Positions 256 through 34,884 of a DNA stretch of 38,614 nt are shown piece by piece; positions within the stretch are counted from its first letter, which is position 1, and each line of letters starts with the position of its first letter. The DNA is taken from the IMG/VR virus record IMGVR_UViG_3300047678_000676, positions 1 to 38,614 of that record, one strand, 5' to 3'. The notes beneath the pieces are model-generated. The model was given only the letters and a program-made list of their open reading frames with translations. It did not search any database and was not told the DNA's origin. Position numbers and translations under genes: made by a program. Origin of the DNA: a virus.

Positions 256-281
256 AAAAGCGCGGTCCGCGCCGCGCTTTT
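256..281. terminator. bidirectional intrinsic terminator at the end of the late operon
   Basis: A perfect 10-bp stem (AAAAGCGCGG at 256-265, CCGCGCTTTT at 272-281) encloses a 6-nt loop. The ends give a T-run in both directions: five T on the plus strand and four on the minus strand. It lies 44 bp beyond the stop codon of the last late gene (325-2274), where a late-operon terminator is expected. The rest of the 110-324 gap shows only the direct repeats at 209-240. Confidence 0.75.
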
Positions 282-324: not shown

Positions 325-2274
325 CTAGCCGGACTGGTACAGCCGCCGCGCGTCATCGAGCGCCAGCTCGGCTTTCCCTTGCCGCATACGCACCGCGTTG
401 TGCGCAGACCACCACCAGTGGACAAACTCCTCAACGCTGCCCACGGCCGACGGATGCGCGGCGAGGTAGGCGCGCCAGTGTCGGCGGCAGTCGCAGAGCG
501 GCGGGAGCCGGTCCGTGATCGAGGCGACCAGATCGCGCCGCTCCTGCTCCGTCGTGAGGATCGCCGCCTGGCTGTGAGCCTCGCGCCACAGCGGCGGCCC
601 CCAATCACCGCCTGGCGCGGCCGACCGCTCGGCACGGGCCACGCGATAACCTTTGCCCACCGTCACCACCCTCGCCTGATCGCTGCCTCGGATCACAAAT
701 TCCCCGTGCGTCGTGGCCACAGTCGCCTCGCGGCCGGGCGGCAGCTTCGCCGCGAGGCGGGCGAGCACGGCGGCCACCTCGGGCGGCGTCACAGCGGCCG
801 GCATCGGGCCGCGATGCGGACGCAGCTCCCACGGCCCCGCCGCCACGAACCGCCGCTCGAAGTATTCGACCACGGCCGCGCTCCCCAGGCTCTTCCCATC
901 GAGGCAGACGAACTGATTCCCCTCACTCTTCTCCCGCACGACCTCGGCGGATGGATGTCCGCCCAGCCAGCCCCGGATGCGCGCCGAGTCGAGCGGCTCG
1001 CTCTCCACGCGCGCCGCGTTCAGGAGCGTGCTGAAAATGGTCATCCCTGGACCTTCGCCGAAGGCAAAGCGCAGCGCCGCCTGGCACCATTCCTTCCGCA
1101 GCGGATACGGGATGTGCCCCTCGAAGGCCCTCGCCGGCAGTCCCGCCGCTCGGAGCACCCGCCCGGTATTCGTCAGCCGCGCCGCCCACGACTCTTCCCC
1201 CGGCTTCCCCGCGCCGATCTCGCCGGTGTGCCAGTGGCGAAAATCCTCGGGCCGCGAATCGCGGACGAGCAGATGATCGTCCGAGCACAGGATGAATGGG
1301 TCGCTGAGTTCCGGTTCCATCGCGAGCCGCGCCGCCTTGGCGAGCAGGTTTGCGTCTTTGTTCCGTGAATAGGGATCGGGCCACGGGACGCAGCGCACCT
1401 GGCTGCGGTCGATCCAGTCCGGGATGTGGCCGATGATCCAGAGCTGCGCGTCGGCATGGTAGTGGCGGCGGAAGGAGCGCAGGCTCATCCGCAGCTCCCA
1501 GTCGTCCGCCTCGCTCCCGCTCCCGAGCATCCAGGCCACGTCCACCCGCACCGACGATCGCGCGGCCACGGGTGCGGAGACACGAGACCGCCGCCCACGG
1601 GTTTTCCACGCCCCGGCGTAGTGGTGAATGCCGGCGGCGCGTTCCCGTTCCCCTTCATTCCTGGGGTCGAAGATCGGGCGGAAGAGCGTGACGAGCTGCG
1701 CCTGCCAGGCGCGCCCGATGCACTGGCCGACGCGGTGAATTTCGCGATGCTCGTAGTTGCCGTTGAGCCACCAATGGATTGCCCGCCGGAACATCTTCGG
1801 GCCAGTCGCCTCGAAGACATAATGATCGAACGCTTTGCCCGGCGCCGGCGCGGCGCGCGTCTCGCGGGCGAGCCGCTGGCAAATGGTCGTGATGAATGGA
1901 TGCCCGCGCGGCGAGACGATCCATCCGTTGCCCGCCCACCCTTCGCGCTCCTCGTGGAAATGCACGCTCTCCGGCTCGAAGTGCTCCTCGTAATTCGCCA
2001 GCGCCTCGATGTCGTAGTCCGCATACATCCCGCCGAAGAGCCGGAGCAGCTCGTAACGCAGGAGATCGCTGCGCAGGCCGGGGTTGAGCGAGCGATCGAG
2101 GATCATCCGCCCGCAGAGCAGCTCGCCCGCGAGCGCCGGCAGATCGGCCTCGCGCCACTCGCGATGTTCCCACGCCGGGTAATGCTCGCGCCACGTCGCC
2201 GCCCACGCGGCTTCGCGCTCCGGCAGCGGGTTCGGCCCGAGCCAGATCTGGTGCAGGATTTTCGGCACGCTCAT
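325..2274 (-). CDS. three-module protein: GT32-like glycosyltransferase + Stealth-like + Erv/ALR-like domain
   Basis: This is a 649-residue protein. Residues 1-225 begin VPKILHQIWLGPNPLP and contain GGMYADYDIEAL with a DxD at D86/D88, the pattern of GT32 (Och1-like) sugar transferases. Residues about 243-470 resemble Stealth-type sugar-phosphate transferases: DVAWMLGSGSEADD, ELRMSLRSF, IPDWID, NKDAN, and SDDHLL at 331-336. Residues about 560-649 resemble Erv/ALR thiol oxidases: LWREAH (W563, H567), CDC (C594/C596; CxC, whereas the family has CxxC), then W..SAHNAVR..QGK. The ATG at 2274 is chosen because it overlaps the previous stop as ATGA. It is the last gene of the late operon. Likely roles are surface-glycan modification or decoration of a virion protein; this is inferred from the motifs. 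Confidence 0.7.
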   Translation of the reverse strand: MSVPKILHQIWLGPNPLPEREAAWAATWREHYPAWEHREWREADLPALAGELLCGRMILDRSLNPGLRSDLLRYELLRLFGGMYADYDIEALANYEEHFEPESVHFHEEREGWAGNGWIVSPRGHPFITTICQRLARETRAAPAPGKAFDHYVFEATGPKMFRRAIHWWLNGNYEHREIHRVGQCIGRAWQAQLVTLFRPIFDPRNEGERERAAGIHHYAGAWKTRGRRSRVSAPVAARSSVRVDVAWMLGSGSEADDWELRMSLRSFRRHYHADAQLWIIGHIPDWIDRSQVRCVPWPDPYSRNKDANLLAKAARLAMEPELSDPFILCSDDHLLVRDSRPEDFRHWHTGEIGAGKPGEESWAARLTNTGRVLRAAGLPARAFEGHIPYPLRKEWCQAALRFAFGEGPGMTIFSTLLNAARVESEPLDSARIRGWLGGHPSAEVVREKSEGNQFVCLDGKSLGSAAVVEYFERRFVAAGPWELRPHRGPMPAAVTPPEVAAVLARLAAKLPPGREATVATTHGEFVIRGSDQARVVTVGKGYRVARAERSAAPGGDWGPPLWREAHSQAAILTTEQERRDLVASITDRLPPLCDCRRHWRAYLAAHPSAVGSVEEFVHWWWSAHNAVRMRQGKAELALDDARRLYQSG

Positions 2275-3392
2275 CTCGCGCAGGGGTCGGGTTCGCATTC
2301 ACCGTTCGGGCCGGTCGGGGCCTGATCGCTCGGGCAGCAGCAGGTGAGGCCGAGCGCCTTGCGGCCGGGGCAGTCGCACCCGTCCTCATCGAGCCCTTCG
2401 CAGATGCAGTAGCTCGGAATGGTCACGCTCCCGGCGCAGGCGAAATCATGATCCAGCGCCGACCCACACCAGAATTCCACATCCACGGTGAAGTCGCCCG
2501 CGCAGGTGCAGGGCCGCGAGAATTCCGCCGACGCGTTCTCCCCGTGCCCCGTCGCGATCGAGGAGCCGCCGATACTGATCCGCCATTCCCAACTGCCCCG
2601 CGTGCAGCTCGCGCAGATCTCGGGCGTCGAGACCACCGCCTCGACCGCGAGCGTGATCGTCCCCGGCGGGCTCGTCTCGCCGCCCACGCACGGCGTGGTC
2701 GCGAGCCCTGCCACCTCGACATGGCAGCACCCAGCCGGACCGCCAGGACTCGAGGGCGACGACGAGCTGCCGCCGTCGTCCGGCCCATCCGGTCCACCGC
2801 CGCCCGATCCGCTCCCGCCGCCGCCGCCGCTCCCGCTCGGGTGAGAGCCCGAGCCCGAGGGCTGACTGCGCGAACCGCTCGACGGCGACGAGCTGCTCCC
2901 CGACGACGAACTGCCCGACGAATCGCTGCCCTGCGACGACCCGCCGAGATCGACGCAATGCTCGTCGCTCAAATCCACATCGAGGTCGCACCGGATCAGC
3001 ACCGTCGCGCCATCGAGCACGCGCAGCCACAGCTTCACGAGATGCTGAAAGCACGTCGTATCCGCGAAGATCGTCTCGCGGGCCAGTGGCGCCGAGTCGT
3101 GGCAGTCGCGCGCCGTCAGCACGTTGTCCACCGCGAGCAGCAGCCGGCCTGTGTCCGCATCTTCGCTGCGCACCTCGTAACGCAGAGGCCGCCCGCCCGC
3201 CCGCGCCCGCAGCCAGGCCGGCGGCGCGGCCCAGCCGATCCGCAGCTTCACGATCCGCTCGCACCCGTCCACGCAGGGCGCATACGTCGCCTCGGCGCAC
3301 AGGTCGAGCTGGTCGCAGCAGCAGCAGTCCTTGTTGGTCGAGAGCTTGCCATCGCCGCTCAGAAGTTTGGTTCCAACCTTGCGCAGCTTCAT
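2271..3392 (-). CDS. cysteine-rich late protein with Ser/Gly linker
   Basis: This is a 373-residue protein with 29 cysteines, including a CCCC run near residue 23 and CCC near the C-terminus, many as CxC or CxxC pairs. A low-complexity Ser/Gly/Pro segment (about residues 155-220) joins two globular halves. The second half has an immunoglobulin-like beta pattern (ITLAVEAVVSTPEIC, WEWRISIGG). No signal peptide is visible. The start at 3392 overlaps the hub stop as ATGA, and the stop overlaps the glycosyltransferase start in the same way. By position it may be a tail-tip or spike protein. The cysteine load could be metal-binding or disulphide-bonded. I do not recognise the family. Confidence 0.65.
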   Translation of the reverse strand: MKLRKVGTKLLSGDGKLSTNKDCCCCDQLDLCAEATYAPCVDGCERIVKLRIGWAAPPAWLRARAGGRPLRYEVRSEDADTGRLLLAVDNVLTARDCHDSAPLARETIFADTTCFQHLVKLWLRVLDGATVLIRCDLDVDLSDEHCVDLGGSSQGSDSSGSSSSGSSSSPSSGSRSQPSGSGSHPSGSGGGGGSGSGGGGPDGPDDGGSSSSPSSPGGPAGCCHVEVAGLATTPCVGGETSPPGTITLAVEAVVSTPEICASCTRGSWEWRISIGGSSIATGHGENASAEFSRPCTCAGDFTVDVEFWCGSALDHDFACAGSVTIPSYCICEGLDEDGCDCPGRKALGLTCCCPSDQAPTGPNGECEPDPCAR

Positions 3393-4966
3393 GTCTCCGG
3401 GCAGGTGTCGGCGATTTCGGTAAAGGCCGGAACTCGATCCGACCACGTCGGCGCGTAGGTGCCGTGCTCGGGGAGCGTCGGCAGGGCGTCCGACGAGCTC
3501 TTCCGTTGCAACGTGATTTTCTTGAACCCGTCCTTTGTCAGGAAGGTGATCTCCTCCTCGCTATAGTCCTCAGTCGTCGAAGTGGACTTGTCCCCGCCGA
3601 AGCTCCAGCTCTCGTCGCTCCCGCCCGTGCCCTGCTGTTTTTGCTGGTCGCGCGTGGCCGGCCGGCGGCGGCGATTGGCCGCGAGCAGCGCCGCGAGATC
3701 GGCGCTGCCGAGCTGGCGCGGCGGTCCCCACGTCAGGATGCGCCGCCCGCGTTCCCACACGTCCGTCACCGCCTGGATCGGCGCGCCCATCGTTGCCCAT
3801 TCCGCGCGACCCCCGGTAATGTTCAGCTTCCGGCCGAGGCCCACGGTGCGCGGCACGTCGTCGCCGTAGAGCGTCCCCGAGCCGCGCCAGGCCAGCGCGT
3901 TCGCCTGCTCGTAGATCGCCCGCGCCAGCGTGTAGCCGGCCACGGTGAGGTCCGGCTCCGTCGCCATGTCGTCCGTCTCGAAGGTCAGCGCCGCCACTCG
4001 TGCCGCACCGGGCTCGGCACCCTCGGGGTAGGCATAGCTCACGTAGTCCGCCGTCACCCGCTCCGTGAGGCCCAGCGCGGCGGCTGGGAAGGTCAACTGA
4101 CGTCCGCCCCGCAGCGTCAGGACCACGTTTTCATTGATCTTCTTCGCTTCGACCCGGTACTGGATCACCACACCCGCCAGCGAAGCCGAGCGGTTTTGCC
4201 CGCAGCGAAACGCGCCCGATCCGTCGAAGCTGTTCGCCGGCACATCCGCCCCGGTGAGCGCATCGTAGGTGGTAAAGTGGAAGGCTGCGGGCGAGACCGA
4301 GTAGTCGAACCACACCACCGCGCCGGGCGTCCAGCGGCAGAGCCGCGTGATCGCCTCGGCACACGTCAGGTCGCTTGCCTCCTCCGTGGGCGCGAGGATG
4401 CCGTCGCTGATCGACCCGATTTGCAGCGCCGCGCCTTTCTCGATCGCCCATTCCACGATCGCGCGAATCTGCGCTCCGGTGGTGATCCGGTTCGCCTGCG
4501 GATTTTCCGGGTTGTAGGTCACCGGATCGGCCCCGAGGATCACACGACCGAAGGGCACGCGCCCGCCCGGCCCGGCCGCCCAGGTCACCGCGAGGAAGGT
4601 CTCCACCGAAAGCCCAAGCGCATCCTCGAGCGACGTCGTTAGCTCCGCCGTCCACCCGCGCATCCAGAGCTGGCAATACTGGTGCCGCGTCAGCTCCAGC
4701 CACCCGCCACCGAGCACGATCTGCCGGTGCAGCGTCGCCTCGCTGTTTTCCTCCGTGGGCAGCACCCGGCCGCGATACACCGGCGTCTCACCCTTCAGCA
4801 CTGTCACCAGCGCGTCTTCTTCCCAGTCGTCCGCCGCGAGCACCGAGTCCTTGGTCTGCGTGAGCGCGAGTGTGTCCATGCCGCCATTCACGAGCTGGCA
4901 GCGCGCGCCCGTGATTTGGCGCGCGGCCAGCGTGGTTCCGCCGATTGAATAATCGTAAAGCGCCAT
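3389..4966 (-). CDS. tail hub / baseplate-like protein
   Basis: This 525-residue protein follows directly on the tape measure gene, the usual place for the distal tail or hub protein. The N-terminal part is beta-rich (YDYSIGGTTLAARQ, VTVLKGETPVYRGRV), followed by a central region containing GAQIRAIVEWAIEKGA and CAEAITRLCRW, as in hub proteins with gp27-like folds. The C-terminus (from about 440) is charged and low in complexity (GGSDESWSFGGDKSTSTTED). ATG at 4966; four bases separate it from the tape measure stop. The role is inferred mostly from gene order. Confidence 0.6.
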   Translation of the reverse strand: MALYDYSIGGTTLAARQITGARCQLVNGGMDTLALTQTKDSVLAADDWEEDALVTVLKGETPVYRGRVLPTEENSEATLHRQIVLGGGWLELTRHQYCQLWMRGWTAELTTSLEDALGLSVETFLAVTWAAGPGGRVPFGRVILGADPVTYNPENPQANRITTGAQIRAIVEWAIEKGAALQIGSISDGILAPTEEASDLTCAEAITRLCRWTPGAVVWFDYSVSPAAFHFTTYDALTGADVPANSFDGSGAFRCGQNRSASLAGVVIQYRVEAKKINENVVLTLRGGRQLTFPAAALGLTERVTADYVSYAYPEGAEPGAARVAALTFETDDMATEPDLTVAGYTLARAIYEQANALAWRGSGTLYGDDVPRTVGLGRKLNITGGRAEWATMGAPIQAVTDVWERGRRILTWGPPRQLGSADLAALLAANRRRRPATRDQQKQQGTGGSDESWSFGGDKSTSTTEDYSEEEITFLTKDGFKKITLQRKSSSDALPTLPEHGTYAPTWSDRVPAFTEIADTCPET

Positions 4967-22745: not shown

Positions 22746-23152
22746 ACGGCGGCGCCGAGCAGCATTTCGCCGGTGGAAGCCGCACGCGGGAGGGAGGCGG
22801 CGGCTGGGTGCGCCGCCTCCCCGGTTGGCGTGGGCGCGGATGAAAGAGGGTCGGCAGCGGGCTCGGTCGGCGTGAACACGACCGCCTTCGCCGGATCGTA
22901 TGGAGCGGCGCAGCTTTCGAAGCAAAGCAGCCGGAGCAGTCCGAGGGTGAGCAGCCGGGTGAACCAGACCTGCTCCTGCGGCTCGAGCGCGTGGCCGAGG
23001 AGGATGCGCTCGACGAGGTGCGCGGGGGAGACCACTGGCGGCTGCATCCATGCACCGCCTTCGACGCGATGCCCCGGCCCCGGCGGCACCGGCCCGAGCG
23101 GGCGGGCGAGTTCGTCGATGAGCGCGACGAGTGCGGGCGACATCATACTCAT
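22742..23152 (-). CDS. unknown small late protein
   Basis: This is a 136-residue protein starting MSMMSPALVALIDELARPLG at ATG 23152, in an ATGA overlap with the endolysin stop. The middle is helical and hydrophobic (FTRLLTLGLLRLLCFESC). The C-terminus is Pro/Ala-rich and ends AASTGEMLLGAAV. No catalytic motif is seen. It lies between endolysin and the membrane coiled-coil protein, so a lysis-related role is possible. Confidence 0.45.
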   Translation of the reverse strand: MSMMSPALVALIDELARPLGPVPPGPGHRVEGGAWMQPPVVSPAHLVERILLGHALEPQEQVWFTRLLTLGLLRLLCFESCAAPYDPAKAVVFTPTEPAADPLSSAPTPTGEAAHPAAASLPRAASTGEMLLGAAV

Positions 23153-23691
23153 TTTGGAAACCGCATGCGAAAGCCGCGGACCCGCGAATACCCCGTGATG
23201 CTCACGCACACGCTGTCCGCCTGGTTGCCACCGAGGATGGCGAGGTTGTCCGCGTCCCAGCCGACCACGTTCGAAACGTGGTTGCCGCCGGGCCGGCTGA
23301 AGACGACCACGCAACCATAGACCGGCTTGGCAATCGGGGTGCCCCAATCGAGCCACGAGGCGGCGGCGGCGCTGTTCGTCTTCGGCACGCCGACCACATC
23401 CATGACAAAGTTTTCAAATGCGGAACACCACGCCACCTCGTCGTCGCTCGCCCTGAGCGAGGTGTGCCGGTGGTATTCCAACACGCGAGGGTTGTCCGCC
23501 GCGCCCGCGTATTCGGTCACGCCCAGTTCCCGCTCTGCCGCGAGCAGCCACGGCGGCACATACACGCCCCGGCTCCGCTGCCACGCATCGGTGGCGAGCT
23601 GCGTCTTGCGCCCCCAGTCGCCGTCGATCGCGCCGGGATTGAATCCGGCGGCGAGAATCGTGCGCTGGTGCGCGGTGACGAAGGCACTCAT
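23149..23691 (-). CDS. endolysin (CHAP/NlpC-P60-like, TIGR02594 type)
   Basis: This is a 180-residue protein. Residues 16-38 (GFNPGAIDGDWGRKTQLATD) look like a short peptidoglycan-binding repeat. Residues 47-180 match TIGR02594-type amidases: PWLLAAERELGVTEYAGAAD, NPRVLEYH, WCSAF with C89, SAAAASWLDWG, and GNHVSNVVGW with H138. No signal peptide is present, so it needs a holin. ATG 23691; two bases separate it from an upstream stop. It cleaves peptidoglycan cross-bridges or amides in the family. Confidence 0.8.
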   Translation of the reverse strand: MSAFVTAHQRTILAAGFNPGAIDGDWGRKTQLATDAWQRSRGVYVPPWLLAAERELGVTEYAGAADNPRVLEYHRHTSLRASDDEVAWCSAFENFVMDVVGVPKTNSAAAASWLDWGTPIAKPVYGCVVVFSRPGGNHVSNVVGWDADNLAILGGNQADSVCVSITGYSRVRGFRMRFPK

Positions 23692-29919: not shown

Positions 29920-30545
29920 GCACGACCGCCGTCATTCCCCAGCTCGCGCCGGAAGTCCTCGCGCTGCCGCACAACCGTTTCCACGCGCAGGCCGTCCGCG
30001 CGGCGAATGAAGCCGCGCTTTGGTCGGCGCTGACCGGGATCGAGCTGCTCGCGATCAAAGGCACGATGAAGCACGGCGACTGGCAGGCGTGGGTCGCGGC
30101 GCACTGCGCCTTCAGCTACCGCACCGCCGCCCGCCACCTCGACTCCGGCCGGCTGGCATTGGCGGCACTGGAGACCAGCGCGCAACAGCCGAGCCTGGTC
30201 GGCCCGGCGGCGTTCGAGGCGGGCAAGGCGCGCATCGCCGAGCTGCTGGAGGGCGACGGCCTCGCCGAGCAGCGCGTGGCGCTGATCGCCGCGATCCGCC
30301 CACCGAAGCCGACGCCCGCGCCGCAGATCGAAGCGCCCGCGCCGAAGAAGCCCGCCAAACCGCGCCCGCCCGTGACCGAGCGCCCGCTCTTCTCGCCGAA
30401 GGCGCTGAACGTGGTGGTCGAACGCTGGCACCACACGCCGGAGCCCGTGCGCCACGCTTTCTACGACGCGAACCGCGCCGAAATTCTCGCCTACGCCGAG
30501 CGGATCAATTCCGAGACCGGCGAGGCCCTCGCCCTCGCTTCCTGA
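29916..30545 (+). CDS. DUF3102-like early protein
   Basis: This is a 209-residue protein. GIELLAIKGTMKHGDWQAWV and AAHCAFSYRTAARHLDSGRL resemble the DUF3102 core (reduced helix-turn-helix with 'GdW..wl....F s.rTA.ry'). A Pro/Lys-rich linker (KPTPAPQIEAPAPKKPAKPR) precedes a short C-terminal helical part. It lies immediately before the transposase. A role in binding early DNA sites is possible. Confidence 0.55.
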   Translation: MSTTAVIPQLAPEVLALPHNRFHAQAVRAANEAALWSALTGIELLAIKGTMKHGDWQAWVAAHCAFSYRTAARHLDSGRLALAALETSAQQPSLVGPAAFEAGKARIAELLEGDGLAEQRVALIAAIRPPKPTPAPQIEAPAPKKPAKPRPPVTERPLFSPKALNVVVERWHHTPEPVRHAFYDANRAEILAYAERINSETGEALALAS

Positions 30546-30547
30546 CC

Positions 30548-32974
30548 ATGAACGCCCTCGCCCTCACCGATCCTCTCGCCCTCCCGTCCGAAGCCCTGCT
30601 CGCCTCGCAATGGGCGCGGCTGCTTGGGATCAAGCACCAGGCGTTTCGCAAACAGTGCGCGGGGCTTTCGGAACTGCGCGGCGGCGGCGCTCGCCAGCTC
30701 AAGCAATACTTTGCCTTCGATCGCCTGCCGGCGACGTATCAGGAGCGGCTGCTCGCCGCGCGTGAGGAAGCGCACTGCCGGTCCTTCGTGGACATGCTCT
30801 CCGGGCCGAACTGGGCGCCGCCGAAAAAGATGGCGGAGACCACCGGCTACAACGAGGCGAAGGCGCAGCGGGTGTGGCAGGTCGTGGACCTCTACGAAGC
30901 GCTCCGCACGGCCGGCCGCCCGGCGGTGGAGTGCGAAGTGAAGGCCGTCGCCAAGTGGAAGGAGATCGCGCTTTTCGGATGGCGGCACGCGGAGGACTGG
31001 AAGCCGGATTTCCGCGATCTCCAGCCGGAGATCACCGATCGCACCCTGCGCAACTGGCTGGCGCGGGTGGAGGCGGCGGGCGGGCATGGCGTGGCGCCGC
31101 TGGAAGCCTACGGACACTTCCGCAGCACGGCGCACCACGCGGCCCGCGCCGATCGCAAGCTGGCGAAGCGGCTCGAACTCGGCGACGAAGCGCTGACCGC
31201 GCTGGCCGGCTGCATCCGCGAAAAGGCGGTGGAAGTGGAGCACGCCTCCGCCGTTTATCACGCGCTGCAAATCGAGTGGCAGAACCAGCGCGAGATTCCG
31301 GGCCTCGGCGTGCGGAAGAACGGCGCGATTTTCCCGCTCACCATGCAGCAGGTGAAGGCGATGATGCCGAGCACGCCCGCGCGACGGCTGGGCAGCCACG
31401 GCGAGGCGCGGTTCGCCCGCGAATGCGCGCCGTGGGTTCACCAGAGCGTCGAATCGCTGCGGCCCGGCGAGCTGCTGGTGCTCGACGACACGCGGATCAA
31501 CCTGATCTGCACCGGCGACGTGAATCCCGGGACGCTGGTCGAGCTGAAGGCTTACATCCTCATGGACGTGGCCACGCGGCGCATCGTGGGCTTCACCATC
31601 AAGGACGGCCCCATCGGCAAGGAGGACGTGAGCGCGCTGCTCGCCCGCTACCTGCGCGGGATCGGCCTGCCCGCGAGCTACCCCACGCATCTGCTTTTCG
31701 AGCGCGGCACCATCGCCTGCTCCGACGCCGCCGAGACGCTGCTCCGCAGCATGTGGCCGGATCGCATCGTGATCCATCGCACCGGCATGGACGGGCGCAA
31801 GCGCAGCGCGGTCGCGGCGTTCTGGGAGGCAGGGAGCGGGCACTGGATGGGCAAGGCGTGGATCGAATCCTTCATGCGGACGATCGCGATTTTCAGCGAA
31901 GCGATGCCCGGCCAGCGTGGCTCGAAGTACGAGCTTCAGCCCGCGCACCTCGGGCTGATCGGGCGCCATCGCGAAACCGGCGCGCTGAAATACGACAAGG
32001 CTCCGATGGGCCGGGACGGCGACGGCAACCCGCGCAGCCTCGGCACCACCACGCGGATGCACGACGCCGCGCTGACCGGTATCGCCGAGCAGGCGCTGCG
32101 CTGGCTGGACGGCAATCCCGCCGATCCGCGCCCGCGCCTGAATTACCAGCCGCTCCTGCCGAAGAGCATCGTGATCCAGCGCCTCGCCGAAGTGGTCGCC
32201 TACTACAACTCGACCAACGAACACCGCCGGCAGGGTCTGCCCCGGATCAAGATGCAGAACGCGCTGAGCAACTGGGTCGATGCCGGCGAATCCGCGGACG
32301 ATGCCTGGACGCGGCTCTCTACCGTGGCCGCCTTCGAGCGCGTGGCACCGCAGGATGCGGCCCGGCTGCTGAAATGGCGCGGCACCACGGCGACCGTGTA
32401 TGGCGAGAGCGGCGTCACCATCGACGTGAGCCCGTGGAAGGCGCTGCAATTCTGGAAGCCGGATTCCCTCGCGTGTCATCAGGCGAATCAGCTCGTGACC
32501 ATGAGCAAGAAGGTCGTCGCCCTTTACGACGCGGAGGCTTTCCGCACCTGGCGGCCGGGCAGCGATGCGCCGCTCGAGCTGCACATCATGACCGACGCGA
32601 GCCCGACGTGGAAACCCGGCGACCCCGCCCGGTATCTCGAGACGCTCCCGCTCGCGCGTCTCCCCGAGCGCAACGACGCGCAGGCCATGGCCGAGGCTCG
32701 GGCCGAAAAGCAGCGCGCGATCAACCGGCTCAAGCTCGAGCTGGGGCAGGCCGTGGGGCCGCGCGCCGCGCGCGATCTCGCCGCGATGACCGAGGACGAG
32801 AACCAGCTCCGGGGCGTGATCGTGAAGATGGAGGAGCATCGCGGCCAGCTCGCCGAAAGCCAGCTCGGGCGCGACGTGAGCGAGCGCCGCGAGGAACCCG
32901 CCATCACCCGCGCCGCGCAACGCGACGAAGCGACCAGCGAACTCGACGCCGCGCTCGCCGATCTCCGCGACTGA
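30548..32974 (+). CDS. Mu A-like DDE transposase
   Basis: This is an 808-residue protein. The N-terminus (LLASQWARLLGIKHQAFRKQ, then LKQYFAFDRLPATYQ) is the Mu-type winged DNA-binding domain. The RNase H-like core has LLVLDDTRINL (D313/D314), LLFERGTIACSD (E385) and MGKAWIESFMRTI (E440), spaced 72 and 55 residues, close to Mu A (67 and 56). The second residue is Glu, where Asp is expected. The C-terminus is a charged coiled coil (EDENQLRGVIVKMEEHRGQL), where MuB would be contacted. It joins phage ends to target DNA and starts replication by transposition. Confidence 0.85.
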   Translation: MNALALTDPLALPSEALLASQWARLLGIKHQAFRKQCAGLSELRGGGARQLKQYFAFDRLPATYQERLLAAREEAHCRSFVDMLSGPNWAPPKKMAETTGYNEAKAQRVWQVVDLYEALRTAGRPAVECEVKAVAKWKEIALFGWRHAEDWKPDFRDLQPEITDRTLRNWLARVEAAGGHGVAPLEAYGHFRSTAHHAARADRKLAKRLELGDEALTALAGCIREKAVEVEHASAVYHALQIEWQNQREIPGLGVRKNGAIFPLTMQQVKAMMPSTPARRLGSHGEARFARECAPWVHQSVESLRPGELLVLDDTRINLICTGDVNPGTLVELKAYILMDVATRRIVGFTIKDGPIGKEDVSALLARYLRGIGLPASYPTHLLFERGTIACSDAAETLLRSMWPDRIVIHRTGMDGRKRSAVAAFWEAGSGHWMGKAWIESFMRTIAIFSEAMPGQRGSKYELQPAHLGLIGRHRETGALKYDKAPMGRDGDGNPRSLGTTTRMHDAALTGIAEQALRWLDGNPADPRPRLNYQPLLPKSIVIQRLAEVVAYYNSTNEHRRQGLPRIKMQNALSNWVDAGESADDAWTRLSTVAAFERVAPQDAARLLKWRGTTATVYGESGVTIDVSPWKALQFWKPDSLACHQANQLVTMSKKVVALYDAEAFRTWRPGSDAPLELHIMTDASPTWKPGDPARYLETLPLARLPERNDAQAMAEARAEKQRAINRLKLELGQAVGPRAARDLAAMTEDENQLRGVIVKMEEHRGQLAESQLGRDVSERREEPAITRAAQRDEATSELDAALADLRD

Positions 32975-33007
32975 CCCTTTCCACCAAACCCAAGCCCGCC
33001 CGCACAC

Positions 33008-34207
33008 ATGTCCACCACCCGCACTCGCCCCGAAGGCGCCGACCGCGCGCCCGAAAGCTACCTCTCCTCCCCGCAGCTTGCGGGGATCAATATCAACCTC
33101 TCGATCATCGCGCAGACGGCGCGGATCGCACCGGAACGCCAGCGCCATGCGATGCTCTGGCTCGGCAATCTCGCCGCGAACTGGCCGCGCATTTCGCTCG
33201 TGTGGGAACGGCGCGGGATGCTCCCGCCGATCGCCGCGATCGGGCGCATGACCGCCGACGCATTGGCCGGCGAGCTCGGCCTGCAAGTGCGCGACGTGCG
33301 CGAGGCGCTCACCGATCCGGGTTACGATCACGCGCTCTTCACGCCCGCCGTGGAGAAGCTGCGGGCGCGCTTCGAAGCCGCGCTGCCGCCGCTGGCCGAG
33401 ACCGAGCCGAAGCGGATCGTGGACCAGGCATTCGCCTACCTCGGGCGGATGAAGAAGCTCGGCGGCGTGGAAGGCAAATGGCGCGCGGGCAAGACGGAGA
33501 GCGCGGAAGACTGCTGGCTGCGCAACCTGCACAACACGCTGTGGATCGACACGCCGAGCGACACGCCCGAGCGCTCGCTGGTCGCCCGCGTGGGCGCGGC
33601 GCTCGGCATCGGCGTGGGCAGCGGGACGAAGAATTGCGTGATCCGCGAGAAGGTGCCAGGCGCGCTCGGTCGCGGGCTGATCGAGCGGATCATCTTCGAC
33701 GAGGCGCACTTCCTCATGCCGCCCGAGCCGGACATGAAGCCGGTGCGGCTGGAGTGGGTGCGCGAGCTGTGTGGCATCCGCAGCGTCTCCGCGATGCTGC
33801 TCGTCACCAAGCAATTTGCCGATGCCATGCAAAAGGCGATGGCGGTGAACACCACCTGGGCGCCCGGCCAGCTCATCGGCCGCATGCCCTATTGGGAATT
33901 GCCCGACGCGCTGAGCGACGAGGACATCGGCGCGATCGTGAAGACGCACGCGCCCAAGGCGAGCGAACCGGCGGTGCGCGCCTTCGTGGCCTTCGCGAAG
34001 TCGAGCGAGGGTTACGTGGGTGCGATGGTGAACGCGATCCAGCTCGCCATCGACGCGGGCGGCGCGGACGGCATCACGAACACAGCAGCCGCCGCCGCGA
34101 TCGAGCAGCAGAAGAAGCTGAACCGCTTCGCTGCGCTGGCGGTGCTGCGAGCGCCGCGAGGGCGGGGGAAACGCAAGGTGCTGACGCTGGAAGGGAGGGC
34201 CGCGTGA
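33008..34207 (+). CDS. Mu B-like target-selection ATPase
   Basis: This is a 399-residue protein. The P-loop is GVEGKWRAGKTESAED with K162/T163, a departure from the usual GxxGxGKT. Walker B is RIIFDEAHFLMP with D231/E232. A helical C-terminus follows (ALSDEDIGAIVKTHAPKASE, and VGAMVNAIQLAIDAGG). It stands directly after the transposase as in Mu. ATG 33008 follows a C/A-rich leader. The family binds DNA in an ATP-dependent manner and directs the transposase to target sites. Confidence 0.75.
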   Translation: MSTTRTRPEGADRAPESYLSSPQLAGININLSIIAQTARIAPERQRHAMLWLGNLAANWPRISLVWERRGMLPPIAAIGRMTADALAGELGLQVRDVREALTDPGYDHALFTPAVEKLRARFEAALPPLAETEPKRIVDQAFAYLGRMKKLGGVEGKWRAGKTESAEDCWLRNLHNTLWIDTPSDTPERSLVARVGAALGIGVGSGTKNCVIREKVPGALGRGLIERIIFDEAHFLMPPEPDMKPVRLEWVRELCGIRSVSAMLLVTKQFADAMQKAMAVNTTWAPGQLIGRMPYWELPDALSDEDIGAIVKTHAPKASEPAVRAFVAFAKSSEGYVGAMVNAIQLAIDAGGADGITNTAAAAAIEQQKKLNRFAALAVLRAPRGRGKRKVLTLEGRAA

Positions 34208-34884
34208 TGGAGAAAAAAGAATCACTGGTGGTCCGCCACGTCGGCGACATTTACCGCCACGCCAACTCGGGCAAGGGCCATTCGTGGCGCATTCTCAACG
34301 GCGCGCTGAGCGATGCGTTGCGGCTGTGCATCACGGCGCATTTGCGGTTTCAGCTCGACGACTTCCACACGATCTATAGGCAGTTTCAGGGCGGGTATTG
34401 GTTCGGCACGGATGGCGACGGCAAAGGCTCGGGGACTTCCCTCTACAGCATCGCGGTCGATTGCGGGAACATGAGCGCGTGTCTCGCTTTCGAGGCATGG
34501 CGCACGTTCGATCCGTGGCTCTACATGGGCCGCCGACTGGCCGTGGCGGGCATGCCTTACAACTCCACGGCCGGCGAGCTCTGGTGGCTCACGTCGGAGC
34601 CAGCGGAAATCATCGCCGCGATCGGAACGAAGACCACGGAGCTGCAAGTCTTGGAAAAGATCGAACGGAATCCGTACGCAGAGCGCTGGTGGGTGACCGG
34701 TTTCAACGCCGACACCCTGCGCCTTGCGAACTACGTGACGGAGAACAATCCCGCCGGTCACCGCGACGGGAAGCCGGTCAAGTTGATGCAGCTCACGCAC
34801 GACGATCTCGAAGCGCGGAGCAAAGCGATCCGCGCCGCGATCAAAGCTGCGCGGCCCAAAAAAGAGAAAGGGGTGGCGGCATGA
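34207..34884 (+). CDS. unknown early protein after the MuB-like gene
   Basis: This is a 225-residue protein with ATG 34207 overlapping the previous stop; GTG 34204 in the same frame is an alternative. It contains RHANSGKGHSWRILNGALSD, YRQFQGGYWFGTDGDGKGSG, YSIAVDCGNMSACLAFEAWR and EIIAAIGTKTTELQVLEKIE. It is Trp/Tyr-rich and compact, and ends KGVAA. I recognise no family; the place just after the transposition genes suits replication-accessory or anti-defence genes. Confidence 0.55.
   Translation: MEKKESLVVRHVGDIYRHANSGKGHSWRILNGALSDALRLCITAHLRFQLDDFHTIYRQFQGGYWFGTDGDGKGSGTSLYSIAVDCGNMSACLAFEAWRTFDPWLYMGRRLAVAGMPYNSTAGELWWLTSEPAEIIAAIGTKTTELQVLEKIERNPYAERWWVTGFNADTLRLANYVTENNPAGHRDGKPVKLMQLTHDDLEARSKAIRAAIKAARPKKEKGVAA

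Follow-up and report, generated by a model that had tools for sequence, protein, structure and literature searches.

A late-operon phage protein joining GT32-like, Stealth-like and Erv/ALR-like modules and the recurrent pairing of an Erv-type domain with a cysteine-rich gene

The gene that closes the late operon of a 38.6-kb IMG/VR virus record (IMGVR_UViG_3300047678_000676, 38,614 nucleotides, analyzed over its whole length and referred to here as the window) encodes a single polypeptide in which GT32-like and Stealth-like modules are followed by an Erv/ALR-like thiol oxidase domain, and its likelier start codon overlaps the stop codon of a gene for a cysteine-rich protein. Many phages that are unrelated to one another share the pairing of an Erv-type domain with a cysteine-rich neighbour, and this suggests a cassette for virion maturation that had gone unrecognised. 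On balance, we consider it probable that the three-module protein is a cytoplasmic enzyme that matures the translationally coupled cysteine-rich tail-region protein encoded immediately upstream.

The window also encodes a Mu-like portal and protease and a CapE-type capsid protein. The whole three-module frame spans 325..2298 on the minus strand and comprises 657 amino acids from ATG 2298, the numbering followed throughout; the alternative start at ATG 2274, which yields 649 amino acids, is the likelier one because its codon interlocks with the stop codon of the gene before it in a 4-nt ATGA. The original prediction had placed the gene at 325-2274, which equals this shorter frame, and had described it as closing the late operon, beside a protein with 29 cysteines; that neighbour was confirmed at 2271..3446 on the same strand. 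Just 3' of the gene, a terminator-like hairpin with a T-rich run (259..273, minus strand) fits a late operon that ends here, although this weak match, coming from a consensus scan only, adds little weight. Next upstream of the cysteine-rich gene in the same operon is a gene for a 525-aa protein (3389..4966, minus strand) that has no family match and is presumably tail-associated. Elsewhere in the window, a lysozyme or endolysin is predicted at 23149-23691 on the minus strand (PHROG 1259, 9.4e-28), and two very long frames on opposite strands overlap, namely 30491-34225 on the minus strand (1244 codons, no PHROG match) and 30874-34884 on the plus strand (1336 codons).

The C-terminal domain (328..606, minus strand; residues 565-657) is homologous to Erv/ALR sulfhydryl oxidases by both profile and fold, as had been proposed from the letters of the gene. 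Residues 571-648 match Evr1_Alr (PF04777) at 34.2 bits (E 3.4e-8), above the curated cut-off of 27.6, which 14 of 16 related records pass as well; phmmer against PDB sequences returns Erv oxidases (9e-7), and NCBIfam gives no match. The model of the domain, built with 22 related sequences, has five helices and a pLDDT of 86.3, and it superimposes on the African swine fever virus protein pB119L (3gwl) with a TM of 0.77 and a Z of 13.8. In this fold comparison, the rows for Erv1, Erv2, ALR and R596 have Z of at least 11.5, and the next unrelated row scores 6.3. Furthermore, a profile of 22 phage Erv domains matches only Erv/ALR/QSOX chains, with 3gwl the best (E 3.7e-19), and a DNA pattern built on the Erv core has a single match in the window and none in 100 shuffles.

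In ALR, the C-terminal cysteine of the CxxC contacts the flavin and the other cysteine exchanges with the substrate. The window domain has a CxC motif (C602-D603-C604, preceded by L601; 487..495, minus strand, placed by alignment) instead of the canonical CxxC at the start of helix 3. C604, which begins helix 3 in the model at the site of the Erv CxxC, aligns with the flavin-side cysteine, and the other cysteine is displaced by one residue; given the roles established in ALR, it is only the substrate-facing cysteine that has shifted. The W-x3-H and W..HN motifs originally read alongside the CxC are likewise in place: from the FAD-contact pattern W..H, C..H[WF], W....HN.VN, the window domain retains W, H, C604, H, W, W, H and N, with the last N of VN replaced by R. 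The original prediction had tied its reading of residues 560-649 to cysteine conservation among homologues, and this is what the alignment reveals, the flavin-side cysteine being invariant in 22 of 22 domains and the second cysteine standing at CxC or CxxC spacing in all 22. Also invariant are W16, H20, P61, W73 and N79, and nearly so H52, P62, H78 and V81 (numbering of the first row of the alignment). The CxC form is carried by the window and by L003, L006, L010, L065, L066, L067, L068 and L069, and most other relatives carry CxxC. The window domain departs from the consensus at the WL, PPDF and VN positions and has the longest branch in the tree (2.51), and for these reasons could be a degenerate copy; no second (shuttle) cysteine pair is obvious in the three-module protein. 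Because the CxxC is replaced, we describe the domain as an Erv/ALR-like variant rather than a canonical sulfhydryl oxidase, with FAD binding and thiol oxidation as its predicted properties.

The middle domain (820..1551, minus strand; residues about 250-493), with CR1-CR4-like segments and an SDD at residues 339-341, is modelled as a Stealth-type fold, for which sugar-1-phosphate transfer is predicted. Here too the original assignment held up, the Stealth part reaching Z of 18.1-19.4 to GNPTAB (7s6n/9bgf) and Mycobacterium tuberculosis CpsY (8j2n) as against 11.6 for the next group (VIA-align); CpsY was matched by Foldseek as well (3.8e-12), and GNPTAB by phmmer against PDB sequences (9e-5). 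PHROG 7999, of unknown function, matches residues 263-409 at 4.6e-12, and stand-alone phage Stealth proteins share about 35% identity with it across the domain. The Pfam match to Stealth_CR2 (residues 265-355, 22 bits, E 2e-4) is far under the curated cut-off of 39.4, which is a convention and not a biochemical trait and appears strict for phage members, given that L082, a relative from another phage, falls short of it too (29.5 bits). The window copy thus differs from described members of the family in its score, in its fusion to GT32-like and Erv-like modules and in its place within the late operon of a phage. Phage contigs commonly encode Stealth-type proteins, with at least 289 relatives among 599 candidates (viral contigs, L073-L152); several of those read stand alone at about 250 aa, and L082 has about 300 extra residues N-terminal to the Stealth domain. 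No Erv signature was found in the flanks of the best 80 of these at least 289 loci, so the combination of Stealth and Erv has so far been encountered in the window only. In the Streptomyces phage TurkishDelight (L071), gp20-gp22 follow the order annotated glycosyltransferase, major tail protein, Stealth-like gene, an arrangement that may allow the glycosylation of a tail protein to be tested in a phage isolate. The segment between the Stealth-like and Erv-like domains (604-816, minus strand; residues about 495-565) has no family match.

The N-terminal domain (1594..2274, minus strand; residues about 9-235) is a borderline case. The claim of an Och1-type GT32 glycosyltransferase (Och1/mannosyltransferase-type, PF04488) stands as far as motifs go: the domain contains PKILHQIW and SDLLRYELLRLFGGMYADYD, corresponding to the PK..HQIW and DLLRY..L...GG.Y.D.D motifs of the family, and has weak matches to phage genes annotated as glycosyltransferase or mannosyltransferase. 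The Pfam match to Gly_transf_sug (DXD/GT32) over residues 26-103 is 22.5 bits (E 1.9e-4), 0.5 bit short of the cut-off of 23, and residues 50-248 are modelled with pLDDT under 50, that is, with no confident fold for this part. The domain is accordingly termed GT32-like on the strength of its sequence motifs.

The proposed substrate is the product of the gene directly upstream (2271..3446, minus strand), a serine- and glycine-rich protein with 29 cysteines (7.4%), for which ATG 3392 is the likelier start as read from the sequence (an ATGA overlap with the gene upstream) and which then begins with MKLRKVGTKLLSGDGKLSTNKDCCCC. Cysteine enrichment at this position is a common feature of Erv-bearing loci, which were searched for independently of the neighbouring gene. 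The immediate same-strand upstream gene contains at least 3.3% cysteine in 16 of 20 distinct Erv lineages, compared to 10.6% of 188 background genes drawn from the same loci with a simple longest-frame caller, a set that may contain false frames (Fisher p 7e-11, Mann-Whitney p 4e-9), and in 15 of the 20 it is the most cysteine-rich gene of its locus. In most loci, the partner gene runs into a potential start codon of the Erv frame, often by exactly 4 nt (ATGA or GTGA) and otherwise by a short stretch. Exceptions to the pairing include L056 and L066, in which the upstream gene is not cysteine-rich, and L022, in which Erv forms the C-terminus of a cysteine- and serine-rich protein within one polypeptide. 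The partners of different lineages have little sequence in common and are too divergent for BLAST, but a basic N-terminus, a G..L...GxL element and a CxCC-type cluster recur in several of them; the N-termini of the L022 fusion and the window partner, in particular, are alike (GSQLLAKSGVL...CACC versus GTKLLSGDGKL...CCCC). The cassette usually closes the tail operon, and tail tape-measure genes are located upstream of it in L010, L022, L034, L036 and L158.

About 22 other Erv-bearing viral or prophage contigs were found in IMG/VR with fixed-spacing DNA patterns (C..H[WF]...W....HN) and one alignment search, and these differ widely in what accompanies the Erv domain. It is fused to GT25 in L023, to GT29 in L056 and to a GT8-like domain in L003, L006 and L010, and it is flanked by Mannosyl_trans3 and GT34 on either side in L034 and L061; the GT8-like label denotes a DxD-containing sequence with sub-threshold Pfam matches, and a profile search of PDB sequences with this domain returned no match. 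The remaining Erv proteins stand alone at about 100-230 aa. At the start of the Erv products of L033, L034 and L061 stands a short cysteine cluster that closes with CPLG (as in CWKCAQRD...C...CPLG) and is possibly a second redox or metal site. Two viral elements under one IMG genome number, L004 and L007 (IMGVR_UViG_2687453341_000004 and _000003), each carry a cysteine-rich gene and an Erv gene. A related-locus search with the window's own protein, its 525-aa neighbour and its capsid protein returned none. The statement that no described phage protein has this combination of modules agrees with our searches: tblastn with the whole protein, its Erv domain and related Erv domains detected no Erv relative in 50,697 isolated-phage records, and no published phage protein combining the modules was found in the largely open-access literature searched.

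In bacterial genomes, sampled from phyla that were inferred from the seed loci and searched with the Pfam model alone, the Erv domain was present in 2 of 388 and 3 of 384 genomes from two overlapping Verrucomicrobiota samples. It was detected in 0 of 392 Planctomycetota-sample and 0 of 398 Pseudomonadota-sample genomes, in which the controls gave no match either, so that absence from these two samples is unproven. Matches of the DNA pattern in genome contigs were discarded as Erv genes, the Erv frames open at the motif being at most 49 residues long, and are chance matches or fragments. In one Verrucomicrobiota genome (G647), a 32-cysteine protein with a Gly/Ser linker is encoded directly before a 126-aa CxC Erv gene, 3' of tail genes; in G630, the protein before the Erv gene contains 2.9% cysteine, and G1270 carries a cassette of the L065 type twice. 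The Verrucomicrobiota genomes confirm the pairing of cysteine-rich and Erv genes independently, and they point to this phylum as host of some cassette phages.

Under the proposed mechanism, both proteins would be made together from the overlapping late genes, and the Erv/ALR-like domain, with FAD and the CxC motif (C604 on the flavin side and C602 on the substrate side), would form disulfides in the cysteine-rich protein even though the host cytoplasm is reducing. Such oxidation would resemble that by pB119L of African swine fever virus and E10R of vaccinia virus, which support disulfide formation in the eukaryotic cytosol. The GT32-like and Stealth-like domains would then add sugar and sugar phosphate to the same protein, perhaps in its serine-rich linker, yielding a tail or adhesin component that is both glycosylated and hardened by covalent bonds. 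Elsewhere among these phages, unrelated families take the place of the glycosyltransferases, or there are none, with the oxidase domain and its cysteine-rich partner retained. Because the oxidase stays beside or fused to a cysteine-rich tail-region protein while the transferases vary, the simplest account is that both activities are directed at that protein during virion assembly; this predicted substrate would presumably reside in the virion.

The strongest rival for the window copy, which we nonetheless consider unlikely, holds that its Erv-like domain is catalytically dead and docks the glycosyltransferases onto the cysteine-rich tail protein. The CxC in place of CxxC and the position of this copy as the most divergent of the set would fit such a role, as would the fusion of Erv to five different glycosyltransferase sets, which is what could be expected of a targeting domain. 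However, none of the 22 aligned domains varies at the flavin-side cysteine or at the W, H and N positions, and the second cysteine never leaves the CxC or CxxC spacing; moreover, most copies stand alone or retain the canonical CxxC, and there the domain has nothing to dock. The original prediction had left both the virion and the host envelope as targets, and we favour the virion because the cysteine-rich tail-region partner is conserved and translationally coupled. That the host is the target instead, with the GT32 and Stealth modules altering surface polysaccharide to exclude other phages and Erv shifting the redox balance of the cell, appears improbable. Phages do alter host surface glycans, and Stealth proteins, including the matched CpsY, serve capsule and exopolysaccharide synthesis; against this stand the late-operon position, the overlap with the cysteine-rich tail-region gene in a pairing kept in unrelated phages, and an N-terminus with no evident signal peptide or membrane segment. 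Still less probable is a metal-based reading, with Zn or Fe-S clusters in the cysteine-rich proteins and an Erv relative that tends their assembly or redox state rather than forming structural disulfides. The partners have CxC, CCCC and CxxC clusters close to their N-termini, which are suggestive of metal sites, but a thiol oxidase ought to destroy such sites, and the cysteines are scattered along the whole proteins rather than confined to clusters.

Maturation of the cysteine-rich partner by the three-module enzyme would have parallels in known systems. Erv/ALR oxidases occur in eukaryotes and their large DNA viruses, and the phage domain shares with pB119L, vaccinia E10R, mimivirus R596 and baculovirus Ac92 the helical fold, the W/H/HN positions of the FAD site and its encoding by a virus; both presumably act on virion proteins in a reducing cytosol. 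Unlike these oxidases, the phage domain comes from tailed-phage contigs, is fused to glycosyltransferases or to a cysteine-rich partner and includes a CxC variant, and its gene overlaps a cysteine-rich tail-region gene, with no dedicated relay proteins seen. In QSOX, an Erv domain is likewise fused to other enzymatic domains, but these are thioredoxin domains that pass on disulfides, whereas the phage partners are glycosyltransferases. We know of no virion-glycosylating phage glycosyltransferase reported to be joined to a thiol oxidase domain. In mycobacteriophages, glycosylation of the virion by phage-encoded glycosyltransferases, presumed, as here, to modify virion proteins, has been proposed (PMC11256854).

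Taken together, these observations incline us, if cautiously, to the broader view that tailed phages encode a dedicated pathway by which their virion proteins are oxidatively folded and glycosylated within the cytoplasm of the bacterium, and in which an Erv-type oxidase, often joined to a glycosyltransferase, is coupled to a cysteine-rich tail protein; bacteriophages would then have an equivalent of the disulfide machinery of the nucleocytoplasmic large DNA viruses, including a separate CxC subclass. The cassette is missing from all isolated-phage records searched and is rare in the sampled bacterial genomes. If the model is correct, tailed phages make disulfide-bonded, probably glycosylated tail proteins in a reducing cytoplasm with their own enzymes, and two protein modifications are linked in one polypeptide. 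Such a pathway would bear on the question of where viral Erv genes came from, and would offer compact tools for disulfide formation in the cytoplasm.
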